Origin: Streptosporangiales bacterium | GTDB taxonomy: Bacteria > Actinomycetota > Actinomycetes > Streptosporangiales > Streptosporangiaceae | Length of the DNA stretch: 49,627 nucleotides | Direction of reading: 5' to 3' | Assembly (NCBI GenBank): GCA_009380095.1 | Contig: WHSL01000016.1 | Span: forward strand, 1 to 49,627 | In this document: positions 40,337-49,627 of the stretch, piece after piece | How the letters are laid out: each line of letters starts with the position of its first letter | How positions within the stretch are numbered: the first letter of the stretch is position 1 | The notes under the pieces: generated by a model | The model's input: the letters and a program-made list of their open reading frames with translations, nothing else | Database searches by the model: none | Told to the model about the DNA's origin: nothing | Position numbers and translations under genes: made by a program

Positions 40337-41593
40337 TCAGCCGTCCAGACTGGCCGCCCAGATCTCCAGGGCGGCGTCGATCTGCTCGGCGTCCACGATC
40401 AGCGGCGGGATCATCCGTACGACGTTGCCGTGCACGCCGCAGGTGAGCAGCAGCAGCCCGCGCTCGGCGGCCCGGCGCTGCGCGCCCTGCGCGGCGGCCG
40501 TGCCGGGCGTGCCGTCCGGGGCGGTGAACTCGCTGCCCACCATGAGCCCGAGGCCCCGTACGTCCCCGATGCCCGGCCTGTCGTGCGCGACCTCCTCCAG
40601 GCCCTTCTTGAGCCGCGCGCCCATCTGCGCCGCGTTGTCCACCAGACCCTCGTCGCGCACCACGTCGAGCGTGGCGAGCGCCGCCGCGCAGGCCACGGCG
40701 TTGCCCCCGTACGTGCCGCCCTGCGAGCCGGGCCACGCCTTGCCCATGACGTCGGCCGGGGCGGCGATCGCGGACAGCGGGAAGCCGCTGGCCAGGCCCT
40801 TCGCGGTGATGAGGATGTCGGGCACGACGGCGGCGTGCTGGTGGCCCCAGAACCGCCCGGTGCGGCCCACGCCGGTCTGCACCTCGTCCACCACGAGCAG
40901 GATGCCGTGCCGGTCCGCGCGCTCGCGCAGGCCCGCGAGGAAGGCGGGCGGGGCGGGGATGTATCCGCCCTCGCCGAGCACCGGCTCGACGAAGAACGCG
41001 GCGGTGTCGGCGGCCGGGCTGACCGTGGCCAGCACCTCGTCGAGCTCGCGCAGCGCGAACGCGACGGCCTCGTCCTCCGGCCTGCCCCAGCGGTAGGCCA
41101 TCGGGAAGGGCGCCACCGCCACGCCCGGCATCAGCGGGGCGAGCCCGGCGCGGAACTTGGTGCCCGAGGTGGTGAGCGCGGCCGCGCCCATGGTGCGGCC
41201 GTGGAACGAGCCGTGGAACACGATCGCGTTCTGCCGGCCGGTGGCGTGCCGCGAGAGCCGCAGCGCCGCCTCCACCGCCTCGCTCCCGGAGTTCACGTAG
41301 AACAGCGAGTCGAGCCCGGCGGGGAGCACCTCGCCGAGCCGCTCGGTGAGGTCGAGCAGCGGACGGTGCATGACCGTCGTGTACTGCCCGTGGATCAGCG
41401 TGCCCACCTGCTTCTGCGCCGCCTCGACGACGCGCGGGTGGCAGTGCCCGGTGCTGGTGACCCCGATGCCCGCGGTGAAGTCGAGGTGGCGCCGGCCCTG
41501 CTCGTCGTACAGGTAGACGCCCTCGCCTCTGGCGGCGAGCACGGGCGTCGCCTGCTTGAGGACCGGGGACAGCGTCGCCCGTGGCTGATTCAT
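40337..41593 (-). CDS. gabT: Class III aminotransferase, 4-aminobutyrate aminotransferase-like
   Basis: A 418-residue PLP enzyme. Catalytic Lys265 is in ITAKGLASGFPLSA and the pyridine-binding Asp236 in LLVVDEVQTGVGRTG. NSGSEAVEAALRLSRH and FHGSFHGRTMGA are standard class III blocks. It probably moves the amino group of GABA or another omega-amino acid to 2-oxoglutarate, yielding a semialdehyde. Start ATG 41593 follows gaagggagccggc. It is divergent from a GabD-like dehydrogenase across a perfect 14-bp palindrome, which supports a shared pathway. The assignment to GABA itself is inference. Confidence 0.87.
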   Translation of the reverse strand: MNQPRATLSPVLKQATPVLAARGEGVYLYDEQGRRHLDFTAGIGVTSTGHCHPRVVEAAQKQVGTLIHGQYTTVMHRPLLDLTERLGEVLPAGLDSLFYVNSGSEAVEAALRLSRHATGRQNAIVFHGSFHGRTMGAAALTTSGTKFRAGLAPLMPGVAVAPFPMAYRWGRPEDEAVAFALRELDEVLATVSPAADTAAFFVEPVLGEGGYIPAPPAFLAGLRERADRHGILLVVDEVQTGVGRTGRFWGHQHAAVVPDILITAKGLASGFPLSAIAAPADVMGKAWPGSQGGTYGGNAVACAAALATLDVVRDEGLVDNAAQMGARLKKGLEEVAHDRPGIGDVRGLGLMVGSEFTAPDGTPGTAAAQGAQRRAAERGLLLLTCGVHGNVVRMIPPLIVDAEQIDAALEIWAASLDG

Positions 41594-41669
41594 GCCGGCT
41601 CCCTTCGGGTGCACGTTGAGCTGGAAGGTCGTGCGCGGACCTATGTTCGCCCAGAACAATGTTTCGTAG

Positions 41670-41744: not shown

Positions 41745-43229
41745 ATGGTCAACGGTGCCGGCGACGAGTCTCGGCGGGAGCGGCACGTCATCGACGCGGT
41801 GGACAAGGGGGTGTTCATCGGCGGCCGCTGGCGTGAGTCCGGCGACGGCCGCACCTTCGGCGTGGCGGACCCGTCCACCGGCGAAGAGCTGTGCCGCGTG
41901 GCCGACGCCTCGCCCGCGGACGGCATGGCGGCGCTGGCGGCGGCCGACGCGGCCCAGGAGGCGTGGGCGGCGTATCCACCCCGCGAGCGCGGCGAGATCC
42001 TGCGCCGCGGCTACGAGCTGCTGATGGCCCGGCAGGACGACCTGGCCCTGCTGATGACCCTGGAGATGGGCAAGCCGCTGCCCGAGGCGAAGGGCGAGAT
42101 CGCGTACGCCGCGGAGTTCCTCCGCTGGTTCTCCGAGGAGGCGGTCCGCATCGACGGCGGGTACGCGGTGCCCCCCGCGGGCACCGGCCGCTTCCTCGTG
42201 ACGCGCCGCCCGGTCGGCCCCTGCCTGCTCATCACCCCGTGGAACTTCCCGATGGCGATGGGCACTCGCAAGATCGGCCCGGCGGTCGCGGCGGGCTGCA
42301 CGATGGTGGTCAAGCCCGCGCCGCAGACGCCGCTGTCCATGCTGGCGCTGGCCGGCATCCTGCGGGAGGCGGGGCTACCGGAGGGCGTGCTCAGCGTGCT
42401 GCCCACCAGCCGCGCCGGCGAGGTCTGCGAGCCGCTGATGCGCGACGGCCGCATCCGCAAGCTCTCCTTCACCGGCTCCACCGTGGTCGGCAAACTGCTC
42501 CTGGAGCAGAGCGCCGAACAGGTGCTCCGCGTCTCCCTGGAGCTCGGCGGCAACGCCCCGTTCCTGGTCTTCGAGGACGCCGACCTGGACGCCGCGGTGG
42601 ACGGCGCGATGCTCGCCAAGATGCGCAACATCGGCGAGGCCTGCACCGCGGCCAACCGCTTCTACGCCCACGAGTCGATCGCGGAGGAGTTCGCGGCGAG
42701 GCTCTCCAAGCGCATGGAGGCCCTCACCGTGGGACGCGGTACGGACGAGGGCGTCCAGGTCGGCCCGCTGATCGACGATGCCGCACGCGACAAGGTGCAG
42801 AGCCTGGTGGAGGACGCGGTGGGCCGCGGCGCCAAGGTCGCCACCGGCGGCGCGCCCGTCGACGGCCCCGGCTTCTTCTACCGCCCCACGGTGCTGGCGA
42901 ACGTCCCGCCCGGCGTCGCCATGGCCGAAACCGAGATCTTCGGCCCGGTGGCCCCCATCGGCACCTTCGCATCGGACGACGAGGCCCTGCGCCTCGCCAA
43001 CGACACCCCGTACGGCCTGGTCAGCTACCTCTACACCCAGGACCTGACCCGAGCCCTCAAGGTCAGCGAAGCCCTCGACACCGGCATGGTCGGCCTCAAC
43101 ACCGGCCTCGTCTCCAACCCCGCTGCCCCCTTCGGCGGCGTGAAGCACTCCGGCCTTGGCCGCGAAGGCGGCACGGTCGGCATCGACGAGTTCCTCGAGA
43201 CCAAGTACGTGGCCATCGGCGGCATCTGA
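41745..43229 (+). CDS. gabD: NAD(P)-dependent aldehyde dehydrogenase, succinate-semialdehyde dehydrogenase-like
   Basis: A 494-residue aldehyde dehydrogenase. Catalytic Cys300 is in RNIGEACTAANRFY, general base Glu266 in VSLELGGNAPFLVF, and the nucleotide-binding block in ITPWNFPMAMGTRKIGPA. The C-terminus has PAAPFGGVKHSGLGREGG, common in GabD. It would oxidise succinic or a similar semialdehyde to the acid, the step after the divergent aminotransferase. Start ATG 41745 with ggagg 4 bases upstream. A strong hairpin follows the stop. Confidence 0.9.
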   Translation: MVNGAGDESRRERHVIDAVDKGVFIGGRWRESGDGRTFGVADPSTGEELCRVADASPADGMAALAAADAAQEAWAAYPPRERGEILRRGYELLMARQDDLALLMTLEMGKPLPEAKGEIAYAAEFLRWFSEEAVRIDGGYAVPPAGTGRFLVTRRPVGPCLLITPWNFPMAMGTRKIGPAVAAGCTMVVKPAPQTPLSMLALAGILREAGLPEGVLSVLPTSRAGEVCEPLMRDGRIRKLSFTGSTVVGKLLLEQSAEQVLRVSLELGGNAPFLVFEDADLDAAVDGAMLAKMRNIGEACTAANRFYAHESIAEEFAARLSKRMEALTVGRGTDEGVQVGPLIDDAARDKVQSLVEDAVGRGAKVATGGAPVDGPGFFYRPTVLANVPPGVAMAETEIFGPVAPIGTFASDDEALRLANDTPYGLVSYLYTQDLTRALKVSEALDTGMVGLNTGLVSNPAAPFGGVKHSGLGREGGTVGIDEFLETKYVAIGGI

Positions 43230-43279: not shown

Positions 43280-44245
43280 CTACTCGTAGAGCAGCGGCGC
43301 GATCTTCGGATCGTCGATGTTGTTCTTGTCGTACCAGTAGAACCCGGTATCGATCGTCTTCGGCAGCTTCTCCTTCTTGATCGCCTTCATCGCGGCCGCG
43401 ACCGTCTGCTGTCCGATGCCGATCGGGTTCTGCGTGACGGCCCCGAGCATGGTGCCGTTCTTGACCGCGTCGATCTGCGCCTTGCCGGAGTCGAAGCCGA
43501 CGATGGTGATGCCCTTCTTGCGGCTCTCCTCGACACCCTTGACGACGCCGATCGCCGAACCTTCGTTGGCCCCGTAGATTCCCTTGATGTCGGGGTTGGC
43601 GGTGATGATCGACTTGGTGATGTCGGCCGACTTGGCCTGGTCGCCTCCGCCGTACTGAACCGGCAGCAGCTGGATGCCGGGCGCGTTCTGCTTCATCCAC
43701 TCGATGAAACCGTCACGCCGCTGGGTGCCGGTGAGGCTCGTCTGGTCGTGCACGACCATGGCGACCTTGCCCTTGCCGCCCAGCGCCTCCGACATGCGCT
43801 TGGCCGCCTCGGCCGCCGCCGCCTTGCTATCGGTCGCCGCCGTGGTCAGCGGGATGTCGCTCTCCACGCCGGAGTCGAACGCGATGACGGGGATGTTCTT
43901 GGCCTTGGCCTGCTGGAGCAGCGGCGCGGCGGCCCGGGAGTCCAGCGCCGCGAACCCGATCGCGTCCGGCCCCGCGTTCAACTTGTTGGTCAGCATGTTG
44001 ATCTGGGCCTCGACCTCGGCCTCGGTCGCCGGGCCCTCGAAGGTGATGCGGGCGCCCTGCTTCGCCGCCTCCTGCTCGGCCCCCCTCTTCACCGCCTGCC
44101 AGAACTGGTGCTGGAAGCCCTTGGAAACGATCGCGATGTACGGTTTGTCGTCGCCACCCGCACTTTCTCCTGCGTTTCCGCAGGCGCCCAGGGGGGCGCT
44201 CATCGCCACCACCACGAGCATCGCGGTGTATCGCTTGATGCTCAT
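43280..44245 (-). CDS. ABC transporter substrate-binding lipoprotein (RbsB-type)
   Basis: A 321-residue periplasmic-type binding protein. It begins with a lipoprotein signal, KRYTAMLVVVAMSAPLGACG, with lipobox L-G-A-C22. The mature part is the two-lobed family of sugar-type binding proteins: PYIAIVSKGFQHQFWQAVKR, EAEVEAQINMLTNKLNAGPD, IPVIAFDSGVESDIPL and NPIGIGQQTVAAAMKAIKK. The ligand is unknown; the genes around suggest a small acid or amino compound as well as a sugar. Start ATG 44245 with gaaggagg. It is the last gene of the transporter unit. Confidence 0.93.
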   Translation of the reverse strand: MSIKRYTAMLVVVAMSAPLGACGNAGESAGGDDKPYIAIVSKGFQHQFWQAVKRGAEQEAAKQGARITFEGPATEAEVEAQINMLTNKLNAGPDAIGFAALDSRAAAPLLQQAKAKNIPVIAFDSGVESDIPLTTAATDSKAAAAEAAKRMSEALGGKGKVAMVVHDQTSLTGTQRRDGFIEWMKQNAPGIQLLPVQYGGGDQAKSADITKSIITANPDIKGIYGANEGSAIGVVKGVEESRKKGITIVGFDSGKAQIDAVKNGTMLGAVTQNPIGIGQQTVAAAMKAIKKEKLPKTIDTGFYWYDKNNIDDPKIAPLLYE

Positions 44246-44267
44246 CGATCGGCCTCCTTCGTACGGG

Positions 44268-45278
44268 CTATGCGGTTCGTTGCCTGGCCATATCGGCATA
44301 GACGGCGAGGACGATGACACAGCCGAGGATGACGTTCTGCCACTCCTGCGGGATCGACATGATCTGCAGGCCGTTGTTGAGCACCGAAATGATCAATGCA
44401 CCGATCAGGGTGCCGACGATGGAGCCCTTGCCGCCCGACAGCGAGGTGCCACCGATCACCACGGCGGCGATCGCCTGCAGCTCGTACCCGAGACCGGTGC
44501 CCGGCTGCGCCGAACCCAGGCGGGAGGAGATCATCACGCCGGCGATGCCGGTGAAGAGGCCGGCGAGCGTGTAGATGATGATCTTCCACTGCCGGACCTT
44601 GATCCCCGAGAGCGCGGTCGCCTCCTCGTTGCTGCCGATGGAGAAGGCGAAGCGGCCGAGGATCGTCCTGCTCAGCAGCACGCCCGCGATGATCGCGATG
44701 GCCGCGAGGATCAGGACGGAGTTGGGAAAGTCGGCGCCCGGAATGATGCTGCCGATCGAGATCTCGACATAGCCGGGCGTGTCGCTGAAGTAGATCGGCG
44801 TGCTGTCCGAGATGACCAGAGCGAGGCCTCCCGCGGCGAGCATCATGGCCAGCGTCGCGATGAACGGCGGCACCTTGAGCAGGGCGACGTTGAGCCCGTT
44901 GACCAGGCCGATCAGGCCACCGAACAGCACGGTCAGGAGGACGCCCAAGGGCACTGGCATGCCCAGGTTGGTGATGAACGTGCCCGCCATGACCGCGCAG
45001 AGCGCCATTCCGGTGCCGACGGACAGATCGATGCCCCCGGAGATGATGACGAAGGTGGTGCCGAGCGCCAGCGTGCCGATCACCACGGTCGCCAGCAGGA
45101 TGGACGTGACGTTCCCGTAGTTGAAGAAATTGGGGCTGGCGATCGAGAAGAAGGCGAAGACGACGATGAGGCCGCCGAAAGCCAGGAACTGTTGAAGCCG
45201 CTTCCGCAGCCTCGCCGGCACCAGGGAGGGACGCGGCTGTCCGGCCTGGCCTTGCTCGGTAACCGACGGCGTGGTCAT
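44268..45278 (-). CDS. ABC transporter permease (RbsC-type)
   Basis: A 336-residue membrane protein with about ten hydrophobic segments: FGGLIVVFAFFSIASPNFFN, TTFVIISGGIDLSVGTGMAL (the typical IDLSVG block), AAVVIGGTSLSGGKGSIVGT and a C-terminal segment QEWQNVILGCVIVLAVYADM. It forms the channel with the double ATPase at 45275-46813. Its ATG overlaps the ATPase stop by 4 bases (ATGA), showing translational coupling. The binding-protein gene starts 22 bases downstream. Confidence 0.93.
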   Translation of the reverse strand: MTTPSVTEQGQAGQPRPSLVPARLRKRLQQFLAFGGLIVVFAFFSIASPNFFNYGNVTSILLATVVIGTLALGTTFVIISGGIDLSVGTGMALCAVMAGTFITNLGMPVPLGVLLTVLFGGLIGLVNGLNVALLKVPPFIATLAMMLAAGGLALVISDSTPIYFSDTPGYVEISIGSIIPGADFPNSVLILAAIAIIAGVLLSRTILGRFAFSIGSNEEATALSGIKVRQWKIIIYTLAGLFTGIAGVMISSRLGSAQPGTGLGYELQAIAAVVIGGTSLSGGKGSIVGTLIGALIISVLNNGLQIMSIPQEWQNVILGCVIVLAVYADMARQRTA

Positions 45279-46813
45279 CGATCTCCTATGAAGCGCATCG
45301 TCGCGAGGTGCATCACGTTCTCCTCGCCGGCCTCCGCGGCGGACAGCACACCCGTCACCCGTCCCTCGCTCATCACGACGACGCGATGGGACAGGCGCAG
45401 GACCTCCGGCAGCTCGGAGGAGATCATGATGATCGACTTGCCCCGGCGGGCGAGCTCGTTGAGCAGCTGGTAGATCTCCTCCTTCGCGCCCACATCGATC
45501 CCGCGCGTCGGTTCGTCGAAGATCAGGACGTCGCAGTCCTTGACCAGCCACTTGGCGATGACGACCTTCTGCTGGTTGCCACCCGAGAGGTTCTTCGTGG
45601 TGAGCGCCACGGACGGGGTCTTGATGGCCAGGTCGCCGACGTACCGTTCGGCCGTCTCGCGGACCGCCCTGTCCTTGACGAAACCGAGGGTCTGGAACAG
45701 CTCCTGCAGGGCGCTGAGACCGATGTTGCTCTCCACGGCCTGCTCGACCAGCAGCCCGAGCTGCTTGCGATCTTCGGAGAGATAGCCGATCCGGTGCTTC
45801 GCCGCGTCCGCGGGGCTCGCGATGTGGACCGGCCTCCCGCGCAGCGTGACCGAGCCCGAGGCCATCTTGTCCGCACCCACGAGCGCCCTGGCCACCTCGG
45901 TACGGCCCGCGCCCATGAGCCCGGCGAACCCGAGGATCTCGCCCTCCATGAGGTCGAAGCCCACGTCCTCGAGCAGTGCCTTGGTGCTCATCCCGCGGAC
46001 GGACAACATGACGTGGCGGTCGTCCCGGACGTTCTCCGGTCGCGCGTCGCCGGCGAGCTCACGTCCGACCATCCGTGAGATCACGTCCTGGACGGTCGTG
46101 GTGGGGGTATCGAGCGTCTCGATGTAGCGGCCGTCGCGGATCACGGTGATCCGGTCGGCGATGGCCTTGAGCTCCTCGAGCCGGTGCGAGATGTAGATGA
46201 CGCCGGTGTCCGGCCGTACGAACCGCCGGATGAGCTCGTGCAGGACCCGCACCTCGGCGTCGTTCAACGCCGCCGTGGGCTCGTCCATGATGAGGACCTT
46301 GGCGTCGAAGGACAGAGCCTTGGCGATCTCGACCATCTGCTGCCTGGCGACGCTGAGCGTACCGACCACCTGCCGGGGGTCGAGCGGCAGCTGGAGCGAG
46401 TCGATGAGCTCCTGCGCCCTGGCGTTGAGCTCCCCTTCGCGAAGGAGGAGCCCTCCGTACCGGGGCTCGCGCCCGAGGAAGATGTTCTGCGCGATCGTGA
46501 GGTCGGGGACCAGGTTGAACTCTTGGTGGATGATGCTGATCCCGCGCTCGAGGGCCTGCCGGGGGCCGCTGACCTCGAGCGGCTCCCCATGGAGCAGGAA
46601 CTGACCCTCGTCCGGTGAGTAGACGCCGGTCAGCAGCTTCATCAACGTCGACTTGCCGGCGCCGTTCTCGCCGACGAGCGCGAGCACCTCGCCGTGGCGC
46701 AGCTCCAGATGCATGTCCTGAAGCGCCTTGACGCCGGGGAAGTTCTTGACGACCCCCCACGCCTCCAGCAGCGCCCGACGGCCCGAGTCGGGCGCCTGAG
46801 CATCCAGGGGCAT
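45275..46813 (-). CDS. Double ABC ATPase (RbsA-type)
   Basis: A 512-residue protein with two ABC domains that powers the importer. The first domain has Walker A GENGAGKSTLMK (48-59) and the switch block DVLIFDEPTRGIDVG belongs to the second. The second Walker A is the usual degenerate form GLMGAGRTEVARAL, and the signature is NLSGGNQQKVVIAKWL. Start ATG 46813 with aaggagcg. It follows the GntR gene by 74 bases on the same strand and overlaps the permease gene. Confidence 0.94.
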   Translation of the reverse strand: MPLDAQAPDSGRRALLEAWGVVKNFPGVKALQDMHLELRHGEVLALVGENGAGKSTLMKLLTGVYSPDEGQFLLHGEPLEVSGPRQALERGISIIHQEFNLVPDLTIAQNIFLGREPRYGGLLLREGELNARAQELIDSLQLPLDPRQVVGTLSVARQQMVEIAKALSFDAKVLIMDEPTAALNDAEVRVLHELIRRFVRPDTGVIYISHRLEELKAIADRITVIRDGRYIETLDTPTTTVQDVISRMVGRELAGDARPENVRDDRHVMLSVRGMSTKALLEDVGFDLMEGEILGFAGLMGAGRTEVARALVGADKMASGSVTLRGRPVHIASPADAAKHRIGYLSEDRKQLGLLVEQAVESNIGLSALQELFQTLGFVKDRAVRETAERYVGDLAIKTPSVALTTKNLSGGNQQKVVIAKWLVKDCDVLIFDEPTRGIDVGAKEEIYQLLNELARRGKSIIMISSELPEVLRLSHRVVVMSEGRVTGVLSAAEAGEENVMHLATMRFIGDR

Positions 46814-46887: not shown

Positions 46888-47553
46888 CTAGGCGGCTCCC
46901 GGGTGGATCCGGTCGATGGTCTCCAGCATGTGGGCCTCGATGAGCCTCAGGAGCAGAGGCTCGTCACCGTCGGCGATGGCGTCGACGAGAACGCTGTGCT
47001 CCTCGACCAACTCCGTGGGTTCGGGATAGACCGCCTGCATCGCGGTCAGGCACATGCGCGTCTCGACCAGGAGCGTCTCGGCCATGCGTTCCAGCCGCGC
47101 GTTGCCCGACAGACTGACCAGGGTCTGATGGAACGCCTGGTCGGCGTCGCTCATCGCGACACGGTCGCCCGAAGCGGCGGCGGTGATCAGCACCTCCAGC
47201 GCCTCGGTCAGCCTGACGACCGCCTCGCCGCGGTTGCCCTGCATGATCAGCTGGCAGGCGGAACGCTCGATGGCCAGGCGCGCCTGATATATGTCGCGTA
47301 CGTCGTTCTCGTCCAGGTCGATCACGAACAGCCCGCGATGACGCTCGCTCCGCAGCAACCCCTCCTGGACCAGTCGTTGCATGGCCTCGCGCAACGGCCC
47401 ACGACTCACCCCGAGCCGGTTGGCCAGCTCGGACTCCCCGAGCTGGTCTCCCGGCTGCAGCGAGCCGTACATGATCGCGGACCGCAGCTGCCCGGCGATG
47501 ATGGCGGCCGTGGATTCACGGGTAACCGGTTCCAGCTCGCCCAGATCGCCCAT
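46888..47553 (-). CDS. GntR family regulator, FCD subfamily
   Basis: A 221-residue DNA-binding protein. Residues about 10-75 are the winged helix (AIIAGQLRSAIMYGSLQPGD, LGESELANRLGVSRGPLREA, LVQEGLLRSERHRGLFV). Residues about 85-215 are the all-helical FCD effector domain, with the metal or ligand residues D and H in DADQAFHQTLV and the helix RLIEAHMLETID. FadR/FCD regulators sense small organic acids and usually repress nearby catabolic genes. It lies in the middle of the run of genes it likely controls; the 14-bp palindrome at 41670 is the best operator candidate. Confidence 0.92.
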   Translation of the reverse strand: MGDLGELEPVTRESTAAIIAGQLRSAIMYGSLQPGDQLGESELANRLGVSRGPLREAMQRLVQEGLLRSERHRGLFVIDLDENDVRDIYQARLAIERSACQLIMQGNRGEAVVRLTEALEVLITAAASGDRVAMSDADQAFHQTLVSLSGNARLERMAETLLVETRMCLTAMQAVYPEPTELVEEHSVLVDAIADGDEPLLLRLIEAHMLETIDRIHPGAA

Positions 47554-47598: not shown

Positions 47599-48345
47599 TC
47601 ACCGCACCGGCGCCTCCGCACCGGCGCGGAACAGCGCCCCGAGCCCGGACCGCGGCGCCGTGTCACCGGCCAGCCGCAGCCCCTCCCACACACTCACCTG
47701 ATTCGCGGTCAGCACCGGCTTGCCCAGCCGGAACTCCAGTTCGTCGAGCACCTCCGCGGTGTGCAGCGCGGTGTCCGGCACCAGCACCGCCTCGGCCTCC
47801 GGGTGGTCGCCCGCGGTCACGAAGCCGAGGACGTCCGTATCACTGAGCGTGCCCACTTCGGCGGCGGTGACGATGCCGCGCTCGCAGGCCGCCACGACCT
47901 CGATGCCGCCGTGCCCGAGGAACGCCACGAAGCGCTCCGCGACGTCCGCCGGGTACGTCGCCGCGACCGCCACCCGGGTCAGCCCCAGATGCCGCGCGGC
48001 GTTGACGAAGGCGAAGGACGTACTGGACGCGGGCACGCCGGCCGCCGCGGCCACGCCCGCGACCTGCTCCCGCGCCCCCTCCCAGCCGAACACGAAGCTG
48101 CCGCTGGTGCAGGCCCAGACCGCGGCGTCCACGCCGAGGGCGCGCAGCTCCCGCGCGCCCTCGCCGAGCACGTCGGCGCCGCCCACGTCGAGCAGCGCGT
48201 CCACGCGGTGCGCGTCCTCGCGCATCAGCGTGTGCACGACCGGCAGCCGTACGGCCCCGCCGGTCAGCCGCTCGAACCGCGGGTAGTCGTCCTCCGCGCT
48301 GAACCCCGGGTACAGGAACCCGACGCTTCGCCGTCCATCCGGCAT
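47599..48345 (-). CDS. Asp/Glu racemase or maleate isomerase superfamily protein, second paralogue
   Basis: A 248-residue protein of the superfamily that includes maleate cis-trans isomerase, arylmalonate decarboxylase and aspartate/glutamate racemase. The first catalytic Cys is kept at C79 in VWACTSGSFVFGWEG. At the place of the second Cys it has Asp191 in LVPDTALHTAEVLDELE. LGKPVLTANQVSVWEGLRLA matches its neighbour. ATG 48345 follows gggaggg closely; ATG 48357, overlapping the previous stop in TGATG, is an alternative. It may act alone or with its tandem partner. Confidence 0.85.
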   Translation of the reverse strand: MPDGRRSVGFLYPGFSAEDDYPRFERLTGGAVRLPVVHTLMREDAHRVDALLDVGGADVLGEGARELRALGVDAAVWACTSGSFVFGWEGAREQVAGVAAAAGVPASSTSFAFVNAARHLGLTRVAVAATYPADVAERFVAFLGHGGIEVVAACERGIVTAAEVGTLSDTDVLGFVTAGDHPEAEAVLVPDTALHTAEVLDELEFRLGKPVLTANQVSVWEGLRLAGDTAPRSGLGALFRAGAEAPVR

Positions 48346-48356
48346 ATGCCCTCCCA

Positions 48357-49121
48357 TCACGCCACCGTCAGCGGCGTCGCGTCGACCAGGCTCTGTCCCG
48401 CTCCCACCGCGCGGCGGCCCATGGCCTGCAGGGCCGCCCACATGGTCACCTGGTTCGCGGTGAGCACCGGCTTTCCGAGGCGCCGCTCCAGCGGCGCGAT
48501 GATGTCGTACGTGGCCACGTTCGTGCAGCTCACGAACACGGCGTCGGCGTCCGGGCGGTCCACCTCGCTGACCGCGTGCACGACCTCGCTGTAGCCCACC
48601 CGCCAGATATGGTTGAGCAGGCCGAGGCCGTAGCTCGACACCGTGTCCTTGCCGTGCTCGTGCAGGTACCCGACCAGCCGGTCGGTGACGCTGTCGACGT
48701 ACGGAGTCACGACCGCCACCCGCCGTACGCCCAGGGTGTCGAGGGCGCGGATGAGCGACCCCGAGGTGGTGCGCGCCGCCGGCGCGCCCGCGTCGAGGAT
48801 GCACTGCTCCAGCGCCCGTTCGGCGTTGCGCCCGTGCACGAAGCTGCCGGACGCGCACGCGTAGGCCACCGCGAGCGGCTCGGGGGCGAGCAGGTCGCGG
48901 GTGGCCCGGCTGACGTTCTCATGATCACTGAGTGCGGCCGCCATCTCCACGGTGACCGGAACCGGCACGAAGGGAAGCCGGGTGAGGTAGAGCGACACGT
49001 CGTCCGGCGCCCACCGCCACAGCTCCCGATCCAGGGCGAAGTCGAACGGGGCGACGACGCCCACGCCCTGCTGCCATGGCGGTTCCGGTCTGCCGATGAA
49101 GTCCGCGACGCTGATCTGCAT
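48357..49121 (-). CDS. Asp/Glu racemase or maleate isomerase superfamily protein, first paralogue
   Basis: A 254-residue protein of the same superfamily with both catalytic cysteines: C89 in VAYACASGSFVHGRNAE and C199 in VFVSCTNVATYDIIAPLE. The two-Cys arrangement is that of maleate isomerases and amino-acid racemases, which act without cofactor. N-terminal PPWQQGVGVVAPFDFALDRE carries the substrate-carboxylate loop. ATG 49121 is preferred for homology; ATG 49154 would overlap the DUF3830 gene by 20 bases. It shares the strand and a one-base stop/start contact with its partner. Confidence 0.85.
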   Translation of the reverse strand: MQISVADFIGRPEPPWQQGVGVVAPFDFALDRELWRWAPDDVSLYLTRLPFVPVPVTVEMAAALSDHENVSRATRDLLAPEPLAVAYACASGSFVHGRNAERALEQCILDAGAPAARTTSGSLIRALDTLGVRRVAVVTPYVDSVTDRLVGYLHEHGKDTVSSYGLGLLNHIWRVGYSEVVHAVSEVDRPDADAVFVSCTNVATYDIIAPLERRLGKPVLTANQVTMWAALQAMGRRAVGAGQSLVDATPLTVA

Positions 49122-49134
49122 CGGCGCCGCGACC

Positions 49135-49626
49135 CTAATCTTCGTGTCGTGCATAGACGAGCCGTTCGCCCACTCCGCCGGAGCGCCAGACGTCGTTACA
49201 GGCCTCGGCCATCCGGTCGAGCCCTTCCACGATCGTCGCGTAGACGTTGCCCGGCACCCAGCCGACATCGCCGTTGAGCAGGAGATTGTTGCGGCCGTAG
49301 AAGATCGCCAGGTCGATCACACCCGGCAGGGCGTCGATGCCCTTCTCCTCCTTGAACGCACGGTCCAGCATGCCTCCGGAGAAGGAGAAGTAGACGACGT
49401 CACCGGGGATCGGCGTGACGGTCGGGTTCTCCTGCCCGACCTCCTCACCGAACCTCGGCACCATCGCGTACACCTCGTTCCGGGCATACTTCGCGTGGTA
49501 CGCGTCACCGCCGAGCGGCAGCGCGTTCCACACCGCTTCACACGTGCGCGGCGCGTCCTTCTCGAGGAGCTCGGCCACGCAGGAGACGCCCCGGCGCTCC
49601 AGAGTGATGGTCAGGTACCTGCTCAT
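49135..49626 (-). CDS. DUF3830 family protein (cyclophilin-like fold)
   Basis: A 163-residue protein, complete to its ATG at the window edge (49626). Text: LTITLERRGVSCVAELLEKD, CEAVWNALPLGGDAYHAKYA, RNEVYAMVPRFGEEVGQENP, TPIPGDVVYFSFSGGML and GRNNLLLNGDVGWVPGNVYA. This is DUF3830, a cyclophilin-like beta-barrel family of unknown function, often beside racemase/isomerase or amidohydrolase genes in degradation loci. It is the most upstream gene of this run that is visible; more genes may precede it outside the window. Confidence 0.85.
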   Translation of the reverse strand: MSRYLTITLERRGVSCVAELLEKDAPRTCEAVWNALPLGGDAYHAKYARNEVYAMVPRFGEEVGQENPTVTPIPGDVVYFSFSGGMLDRAFKEEKGIDALPGVIDLAIFYGRNNLLLNGDVGWVPGNVYATIVEGLDRMAEACNDVWRSGGVGERLVYARHED

Positions 49627-49627
49627 C

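Follow-up and report, generated by a model that had tools for sequence, protein, structure and literature searches.

P1 and P2, two tandem, cofactor-free paralogues of the Amdase fold, differ at the second catalytic position of their family: P1 has a cysteine at both catalytic positions, whereas P2 has an aspartate in place of the second. The pair is part of a wider module that is conserved in Actinomycetota. What is new is a variant inside a known fold together with a candidate module that is apparently undescribed, rather than a new kind of system. We tentatively propose, with doubt slightly outweighing confidence, that P2 is an EutA-like enzyme in which the aspartate acts as acid/base in a proton transfer, and that the module degrades an ectoine-type osmolyte without EutD.

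The window, a stretch of 49,627 nucleotides from a Streptosporangiales bacterium, carries the following features.

49135..49626, minus strand: DUF3830 protein (like 3kop), the gene before P1 (PF12903, 209.5 bits; 3kop, E 5.8e-61)
48357..49121, minus strand: P1, EutA-like paralogue of the Amdase fold carrying Cys89 and Cys199 (Pfam, alignment, model)
48857-48855, minus strand: codon of P1 C89
48527-48525, minus strand: codon of P1 C199
47599..48345, minus strand: P2, EutA-like paralogue of the Amdase fold carrying Cys79 and Asp191 (Pfam, alignment, model)
48109..48111, minus strand: codon TGC of P2 Cys79, aligned with P1 Cys89 and AMDase Gly74
47773..47775, minus strand: codon GAC of P2 Asp191, aligned with P1 Cys199 and AMDase Cys188
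46888..47553, minus strand: GntR/FCD transcription regulator, after P2 (profile match)
45275..46813, minus strand: RbsA-type ATPase of a sugar ABC transporter, part of an insertion into the cluster of this genome (profile match)
44268..45278, minus strand: RbsC-type permease (profile match)
43280..44245, minus strand: RbsB-type substrate-binding protein (profile match)
41745..43229, plus strand: aldehyde dehydrogenase, succinate-semialdehyde dehydrogenase group (sometimes in the module)
40337..41659, minus strand: class III aminotransferase (often in the module)

On the minus strand the order is DUF3830, P1, P2 and GntR/FCD, then the Rbs-type transporter, with the aldehyde dehydrogenase and aminotransferase genes beyond. 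The contig ends at the start codon of DUF3830. Another contig of the same genome (C189, L198) shares an exact 141-base overlap with the window end (49487-49627) and holds genes for an amidase and a D-2-hydroxyacid dehydrogenase, divergent from DUF3830, so the window appears to lack these two genes because its contig ends there.

Fold and active site of the two paralogues

The earlier note had read C89 and C199 in the first paralogue, and both residues are encoded there on the minus strand. Its reading of the second paralogue, in which C79 is kept and Asp191 stands opposite the partner's cysteine, was confirmed, with the aspartate sharing a column with P1 C199. The P2 residues carry two numberings: counted from the ATG at 48345, which has GGAGGG upstream, the residues are C79 and D191, and in the protein P0002, translated from an earlier in-frame GTG at 48360 that overlaps the P1 stop, they are C84 and D196. 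The latter numbers are used below.

Both proteins are members of the Pfam family Amdase (PF17645), with 94.3 and 94.0 bits against a gathering cut-off of 25.9. The best NCBIfam model for both was EutA (TIGR02990), which gave 109 bits for P1 and 95.7 bits for P2 and did not reach its cut-off of 318, and the arylmalonate decarboxylase (AMDase) model NF052327 gave 93.6 and 94.9 bits, short of its cut-off of 225. AMDase proper and classical EutA were rejected as identities on these scores, and we therefore assign neither named function to P1 or P2. The two are paralogues of one another, with 35% identity over 171 aa (E 7e-25), and a profile-profile alignment (probability 99.9) set C199 of P1 and D196 of P2 in one column.

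The solved sequence nearest to P2 was 3ixl, the G74C/C188S mutant of AMDase (E 1.8e-18), and this alignment paired Cys84 with position 74 and Asp196 with position 188. AlphaFold models of P1 and P2 (pLDDT 84.6 and 87.3) had the AMDase/maleate isomerase fold, and Foldseek returned 4ix1, AMDases and maleate isomerases as top matches of both, with TMq about 0.8. The predicted models place the second-site residue just after the same strand in both proteins (194-197 in P1, 191-194 in P2). By alignment, the P2 aspartate thus appears to occupy the position of the second catalytic cysteine, a correspondence that the models show at the level of the strand. The earlier note's claim would have failed had the aspartate lain outside the active site; its alignment with AMDase Cys188 and its place after the shared strand speak for a position inside it.

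Conservation of the aspartate and of the gene module

We assembled a conservation set of 98 P2 proteins from the window, the best 80 of 251 related loci and 17 distant P2s from P1-bearing genomes; one locus (L077) was counted although a cut at the contig edge hides its P1. In the window and the best 80 of 251 related loci, all 81 P2 rows had Cys84 and Asp196, and all 80 P1 rows had both cysteines. Over the whole set, which includes those best 80 loci, every P2 of a P1-type cluster had the aspartate (94 Cys/Asp, 4 Ser/Asp), none had cysteine at this site (0/98), and P1 was Cys/Cys in 98 of 98 orthologues. P2 orthologues with cysteine there would have counted against the earlier note. Sequencing error and a local mutation of a single strain were rejected as explanations on the strength of this invariance. 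Identity to the P2 of the window was 60-81% for strong matches within its family and 51-65% in other families.

Other active-site residues were conserved as well. Within the same 98 proteins (best 80 of 251 loci included), T85, S86 and Y136, which correspond to AMDase T75, S76 and Y126, were each present in 98 of 98, and T85, S86, S88 and D196 were all invariant. P1 had Ala at the place of AMDase T75 in 76 of 98, and the residue at AMDase G189 was Thr in both paralogues. We do not favour a dead gene copy: P2 frames were nearly all free of stops, and the invariance of the carboxylate-binding residues argues against it. A stop codon was found in one of 81 P2 rows from the window and the best 80 of 251 loci (L027, just before the end of the match), and the 23 P2 frames from wider Actinomycetota genomes contained none and were 239-264 aa long.

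The earlier note had also suggested a one-Cys enzyme, and here the distant orthologues spoke against it. Of the 17 distant P2s sharing a genome with P1, 13 were Cys/Asp and 4 were Ser/Asp, so that the remaining cysteine was itself replaced in 4 of 17. The four belong to one family (f19), their P1 is Cys/Cys, and their stretches carry all six module genes. Because serine replaces the first cysteine in these proteins while the aspartate is kept, P2 looks like an Asp enzyme and not a one-Cys enzyme. It is improbable that P2 works like the engineered G74C/C188S AMDase, with the first cysteine as sole proton donor and the aspartate as bystander: that mutant is indeed its nearest solved sequence and the first cysteine is present in 94 of the 98 P2s (best 80 of 251 loci included), but the Ser/Asp proteins sit in complete modules and Tyr48 of the AMDase hydrophobic pocket falls opposite a gap in all 98. 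As a counterpoint to aspartate chemistry, the conserved residue can be structural, and three of six P2s without P1 in the genus g70 have Gly in its place.

Cysteine is the usual residue at the second position among other members of the family, being present in 15 of 16 proteins picked from 40 among 337 plasmid records. The sole exception, from Nitratireductor, is also Cys/Asp, and its nearest relative in the tree, where branches are long, is Cys/Cys. This alphaproteobacterial protein, encoded on a plasmid of Nitratireductor thuwali (L199 8857-9630) and annotated as hypothetical, lies near genes of sugar-acid type (enolase-like, dihydrodipicolinate-synthase-like, Gfo/Idh/MocA). In three further Amdase-family members from Actinomycetota (L140, L141 and L142) the two sites read Phe/Gly, Ser/Gly and Met/Gly; judged by these residues, they may represent further lineages that lack both catalytic cysteines. 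The superfamily also includes natural Thr/Cys members, such as the E. coli L-aspartate/glutamate racemase.

To describe the genes around the pair, a conserved module that the earlier note had not brought up, we counted module genes by tblastn in the best 80 of 251 related loci. Homologues were found for the amidase in 77, the D-2-hydroxyacid dehydrogenase in 78, DUF3830 in 79, P1 in 79, P2 in 80 and the GntR regulator in 77. Loci without one of the first six genes (L025, L052, L068, L077 and L079) were all cut at a contig end, as were the three that missed the regulator. The class III aminotransferase was present in 62 of these 80 loci and the aldehyde dehydrogenase in 26. The Rbs-type sugar ABC transporter (43280-46813) sits within the cluster of the window, and no homologue of its RbsB-type binding protein was found by tblastn in the best 80 of 251 related loci. 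Family f19 has Glu/Leu/Phe/Val dehydrogenase genes beside the module (L189 14379-15566, L193 2106-3296), and no aminotransferase of the usual kind was seen in its stretches. DUF3830 had two distant matches on plasmids, and the one inspected had no P1 or P2 annotation nearby. Our literature search, mostly at the level of search results and outside subscription papers, returned no paper on DUF3830 and no description of the module or of the Asp variant.

Co-occurrence of P1 and P2, and P2 in genomes without P1

To determine how widely the pair is distributed, we drew an even sample of 396 Actinomycetota genomes, including that of the window, and took E <1e-70 as a strong P2 and E <1e-60 as a P1 orthologue. 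A strong P2 was present in 23 genomes besides the window's own, 17 of which had a P1 orthologue. Among the 395 genomes without that of the window, P1 occurred in 18 and P2 in 23, with both in 17, P1 only in 1, P2 only in 6 and neither in 371 (Fisher p 6.5e-24, kinship between genomes being ignored). G404, the one genome in which P1 was present and a search for P2 came back empty, is a draft of 240 contigs in which P1 lies on a 6.9 kb contig. Within the family of the window, 46 of 200 genomes had a strong P2 (own included) and 45 of these had a P1-like neighbour among the matches listed, the exception being G198, in which a search with the P1 profile matched only P2 itself.

Of the best 80 of 251 related loci, 79 had both genes, and in all 79 P1 lay before P2 on the same strand. 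More distant Actinomycetota showed tandem pairs, divergent pairs, and pairs separated by about 8.5 kb in which further genes of the module lay. We built a tree by quick search from 34 P1 and 39 P2 rows with the two catalytic columns removed. P1 and P2 each formed one clade, apart from EutA and an AMDase-like row, with some branches weak. Genomes of g70 without P1 fell in three places in this tree, which makes repeated loss of P1 probable.

P2 persists without P1 in seven genomes, six of g70 and G198, always as a full-length frame. Of the six g70 proteins, two are Ser/Gly, one is Cys/Gly and three are Ser/Asp. Those of G222, G392 and G445 have Gly for both S88 and D196; T85 and S86 are changed in G381 and G306; G198 has Gly for S86 and S88 and keeps its cysteine and aspartate. 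Six of the seven therefore differ at at least one of T85, S86, S88 and D196, and the seventh, G568, has Ser for Cys with these four residues unchanged. Across these proteins (L180-L185, L223), the change from Asp to Gly always came with that from Ser88 to Gly (3/3), and positions 88 and 196 of P2 may be linked. Judged from these residues, the active site of P2 appears to drift or to be retuned when P1 is missing.

Because all P2s without P1 have altered motifs, the role of P2 seems tied to P1, either physically or metabolically. DUF3830 is missing from the stretches of all seven genomes and the amidase from six, so the changes in P2 may reflect a lost pathway and not a lost binding partner. 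A test for relaxed selection on P2s without P1, based on distances between P2s, did not point one way. Relative to EhuA, the median P2 distance was 1.48 for pairs with P1 (3 pairs), 1.85 for pairs without (15) and 1.88 for mixed pairs (18); relative to EhuB the values were 0.90 with P1 (3 pairs), 0.68 without and 0.99 mixed, the opposite direction to EhuA.

A physical tie, as in the heteromeric enzyme that the earlier note had offered as one option, would fit a P2 that is a non-catalytic or assisting subunit, in a hetero-oligomer to which P1 gives the cysteines and in which P2 binds or positions the substrate. The strong co-occurrence, the fixed order of the two genes in the best 80 of 251 loci and the altered residues of P2s without P1 are consistent with this. 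We nevertheless regard it as unlikely, since full-length P2 frames persist in seven genomes without P1, the genes are divergent or well separated in other lineages, every P2 accompanied by P1 retains its carboxylate-binding residues, and in six of the seven genomes the stretches read are also without amidase and DUF3830. An obligate P1-P2 heteromer is not favoured.

Linked transporters, a candidate pathway and known systems

The ectoine/hydroxyectoine binding protein EhuB scored above its curated cut-off in 17 of the 24 genomes with P2. As a control, none of 14 well-known genomes exceeded the cut-off, and 11 of them gave weaker matches. In 12 of the 24 genomes, ten of g70 together with G207 and G425, EhuB and P2 lay no more than about 11 kb apart; 10 of these 12 thus represent one genus. 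Of the ten g70 genomes, six lack P1 and, in the stretches that were read, the amidase and the DUF3830 gene as well. In G404, EhuB sits beside P1 with 291.8 bits (cut-off 190.9), and EhuC is above cut-off too. Linkage of EhuB to P1 or P2 spans four actinobacterial families (f2, f3, f17 and f48). EhuA and EhuC of G327 and EhuC and EhuD of G207 were likewise above cut-off, while EhuA of G207 (L192), whose gene is called short, scored 314.9 against 345.4. Other copies have a BCCT transporter nearby (G469 and, by Pfam, G264) or MFS transporters (G207 and G297, the latter ProP-like with 469.7 bits against a cut-off of 544).

The ectoine hydrolase EutD/DoeA, searched with two models, was above cut-off in none of the 24 genomes. 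The best EutD score, 416 bits against a cut-off of 613, came from an M24 protein of G207, so a diverged hydrolase may be present in that genome. Around P1 and P2 of G297 (L190 2622-3773, 10899-16677) we observed a DoeA-related M24 protein that stays below cut-off at 220 bits, a deaminase and genes that by eye look to be of molybdenum-hydroxylase type. The linked ectoine transporter of the 12 genomes and G404 is absent from the window, and no EhuB-like gene was found in the stretches of the best 80 of 251 related loci. In the genome of the window, ehuBCDA instead adjoins ectABCD, for hydroxyectoine biosynthesis, on another contig (C379; L205 8038-14450). With an Rbs-type transporter in the cluster and ehuBCDA elsewhere beside ectABCD, the case for an ectoine substrate is weak for this strain.

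These data leave a serious possibility, if one we somewhat doubt, that the substrate is not ectoine-like (an N-acyl omega-amino acid or a hydroxy-dicarboxylate, for instance) and that the Ehu transporter has been reused for it. The transporter varies by lineage between Rbs-type, BCCT, ProP-like MFS and Ehu, the best 80 of 251 loci have neither an EhuB- nor an Rbs-type binding protein, and the amidase, aminotransferase and aldehyde dehydrogenase match generic models. Against this, EhuB above an equivalog cut-off recurs near P1 or P2 in four families, and other copies come with osmolyte-type transporters.

Our proposal of an osmolyte pathway with an Asp-based P2 builds on observed features: the conserved residues, the P1 and P2 clades, the module itself and the Ehu, BCCT and ProP-like transporters linked to it. 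From these we infer that the aspartate is catalytic, which reaction takes place, what the substrate is and how the steps follow one another. P1 and P2 would be two long-separated EutA-like enzymes in one catabolic module. A zwitterionic osmolyte of the ectoine/hydroxyectoine type would be imported, as the linked transporters suggest, and the amidase would hydrolyse an amide or a ring. P1, with the two-thiol Cys/Cys machinery of racemases and isomerases, would by family knowledge catalyse a stereochemical inversion or isomerisation. P2 would carry out a second proton-transfer step, with Asp196 as acid/base and T85, S86 and Y136, to judge by their invariance, holding the carboxylate. The reaction may be an isomerisation, decarboxylation or hydration of a carboxylate intermediate made or used by P1; it would be thiol-independent, with the first cysteine dispensable. 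Where present, the aminotransferase and aldehyde dehydrogenase would, again by family knowledge, remove an omega-amino group and then oxidise the product.

If P2 works in this way, a superfamily of cysteine chemistry would include a lineage in which a key cysteine was swapped for aspartate and the aspartate then held, a natural test of the need for a thiol and a lead for cofactor-free biocatalysts. The module may let soil actinobacteria use ectoine-like salt-stress protectants by an undescribed route. A 2018 review describes ectoine consumers as restricted to Proteobacteria (PMC5924519), and a 2026 paper reports candidate Gram-positive ectoine clusters found through EutD and EutB (PMC13188858). 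Should the osmolyte link be true, the module would offer a concrete, testable gene set for use of ectoine or related osmolytes in Gram-positive bacteria, and DUF3830 would gain a metabolic setting.

Among the nearest known systems is that of EutA (TIGR02990), which shares its Pfam family with P1 and P2 and, in the two proteins examined, is Cys/Cys like P1, whereas P2 has Asp for the second cysteine. In the tree, the rows of EutA separate from P1 as well as from P2. EutA is described as occurring with Ehu transporters, an aminotransferase and a semialdehyde dehydrogenase (PMC5924519). The published route runs from ectoine through EutD and EutE to an aminotransferase and a semialdehyde dehydrogenase (PMC5924519, PMC13188858), and enzymes of these last two kinds are described as homologous to GABA enzymes (PMC5320631). 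The module has in common with ectoine clusters the kind of aminotransferase and aldehyde dehydrogenase, EutA-like proteins and a hydroxyacid dehydrogenase; it differs in its amidase, in DUF3830 and in its want of an EutD above cut-off. Judged by EutD in the 24 genomes, P1 and P2 do not stand beside a eutBCDE set.

AMDase of the Bordetella bronchiseptica type provides the nearest solved structures by sequence for both proteins. Its dioxyanion residues T75, S76 and Y126 (PMC4996985, Table 4) are retained in P2 and its pocket residue Tyr48 is not; AMDase is Gly74/Cys188, in contrast to Cys/Asp in P2 and Cys/Cys in P1. Maleate cis-trans isomerases (2xec, 2xed, 4fq5, 4fq7) match in fold, with TMq 0.78-0.85 and identity of 19-24%, and have two cysteines, as does P1, whereas P2 is without the second. 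The top Foldseek match of both models, 4ix1 (Rhodococcus opacus OPAG_01669), has Ala-Val-His-Thr after the site, which resembles Ala-Leu-His-Thr in P2, and has Gly where P2 has Asp, as do three P2s without P1. The putative Gram-positive ectoine clusters retrieved with EutD and EutB as queries are reported from Actinomycetota as predicted catabolic clusters, with Ehu, BCCT or MFS transporters and an amidohydrolase (PMC13188858, 2026). In contrast to those clusters, the module lacks an EutD above cut-off; it comprises an amidase, a D-2-hydroxyacid dehydrogenase, DUF3830 and a pair of EutA-like proteins.
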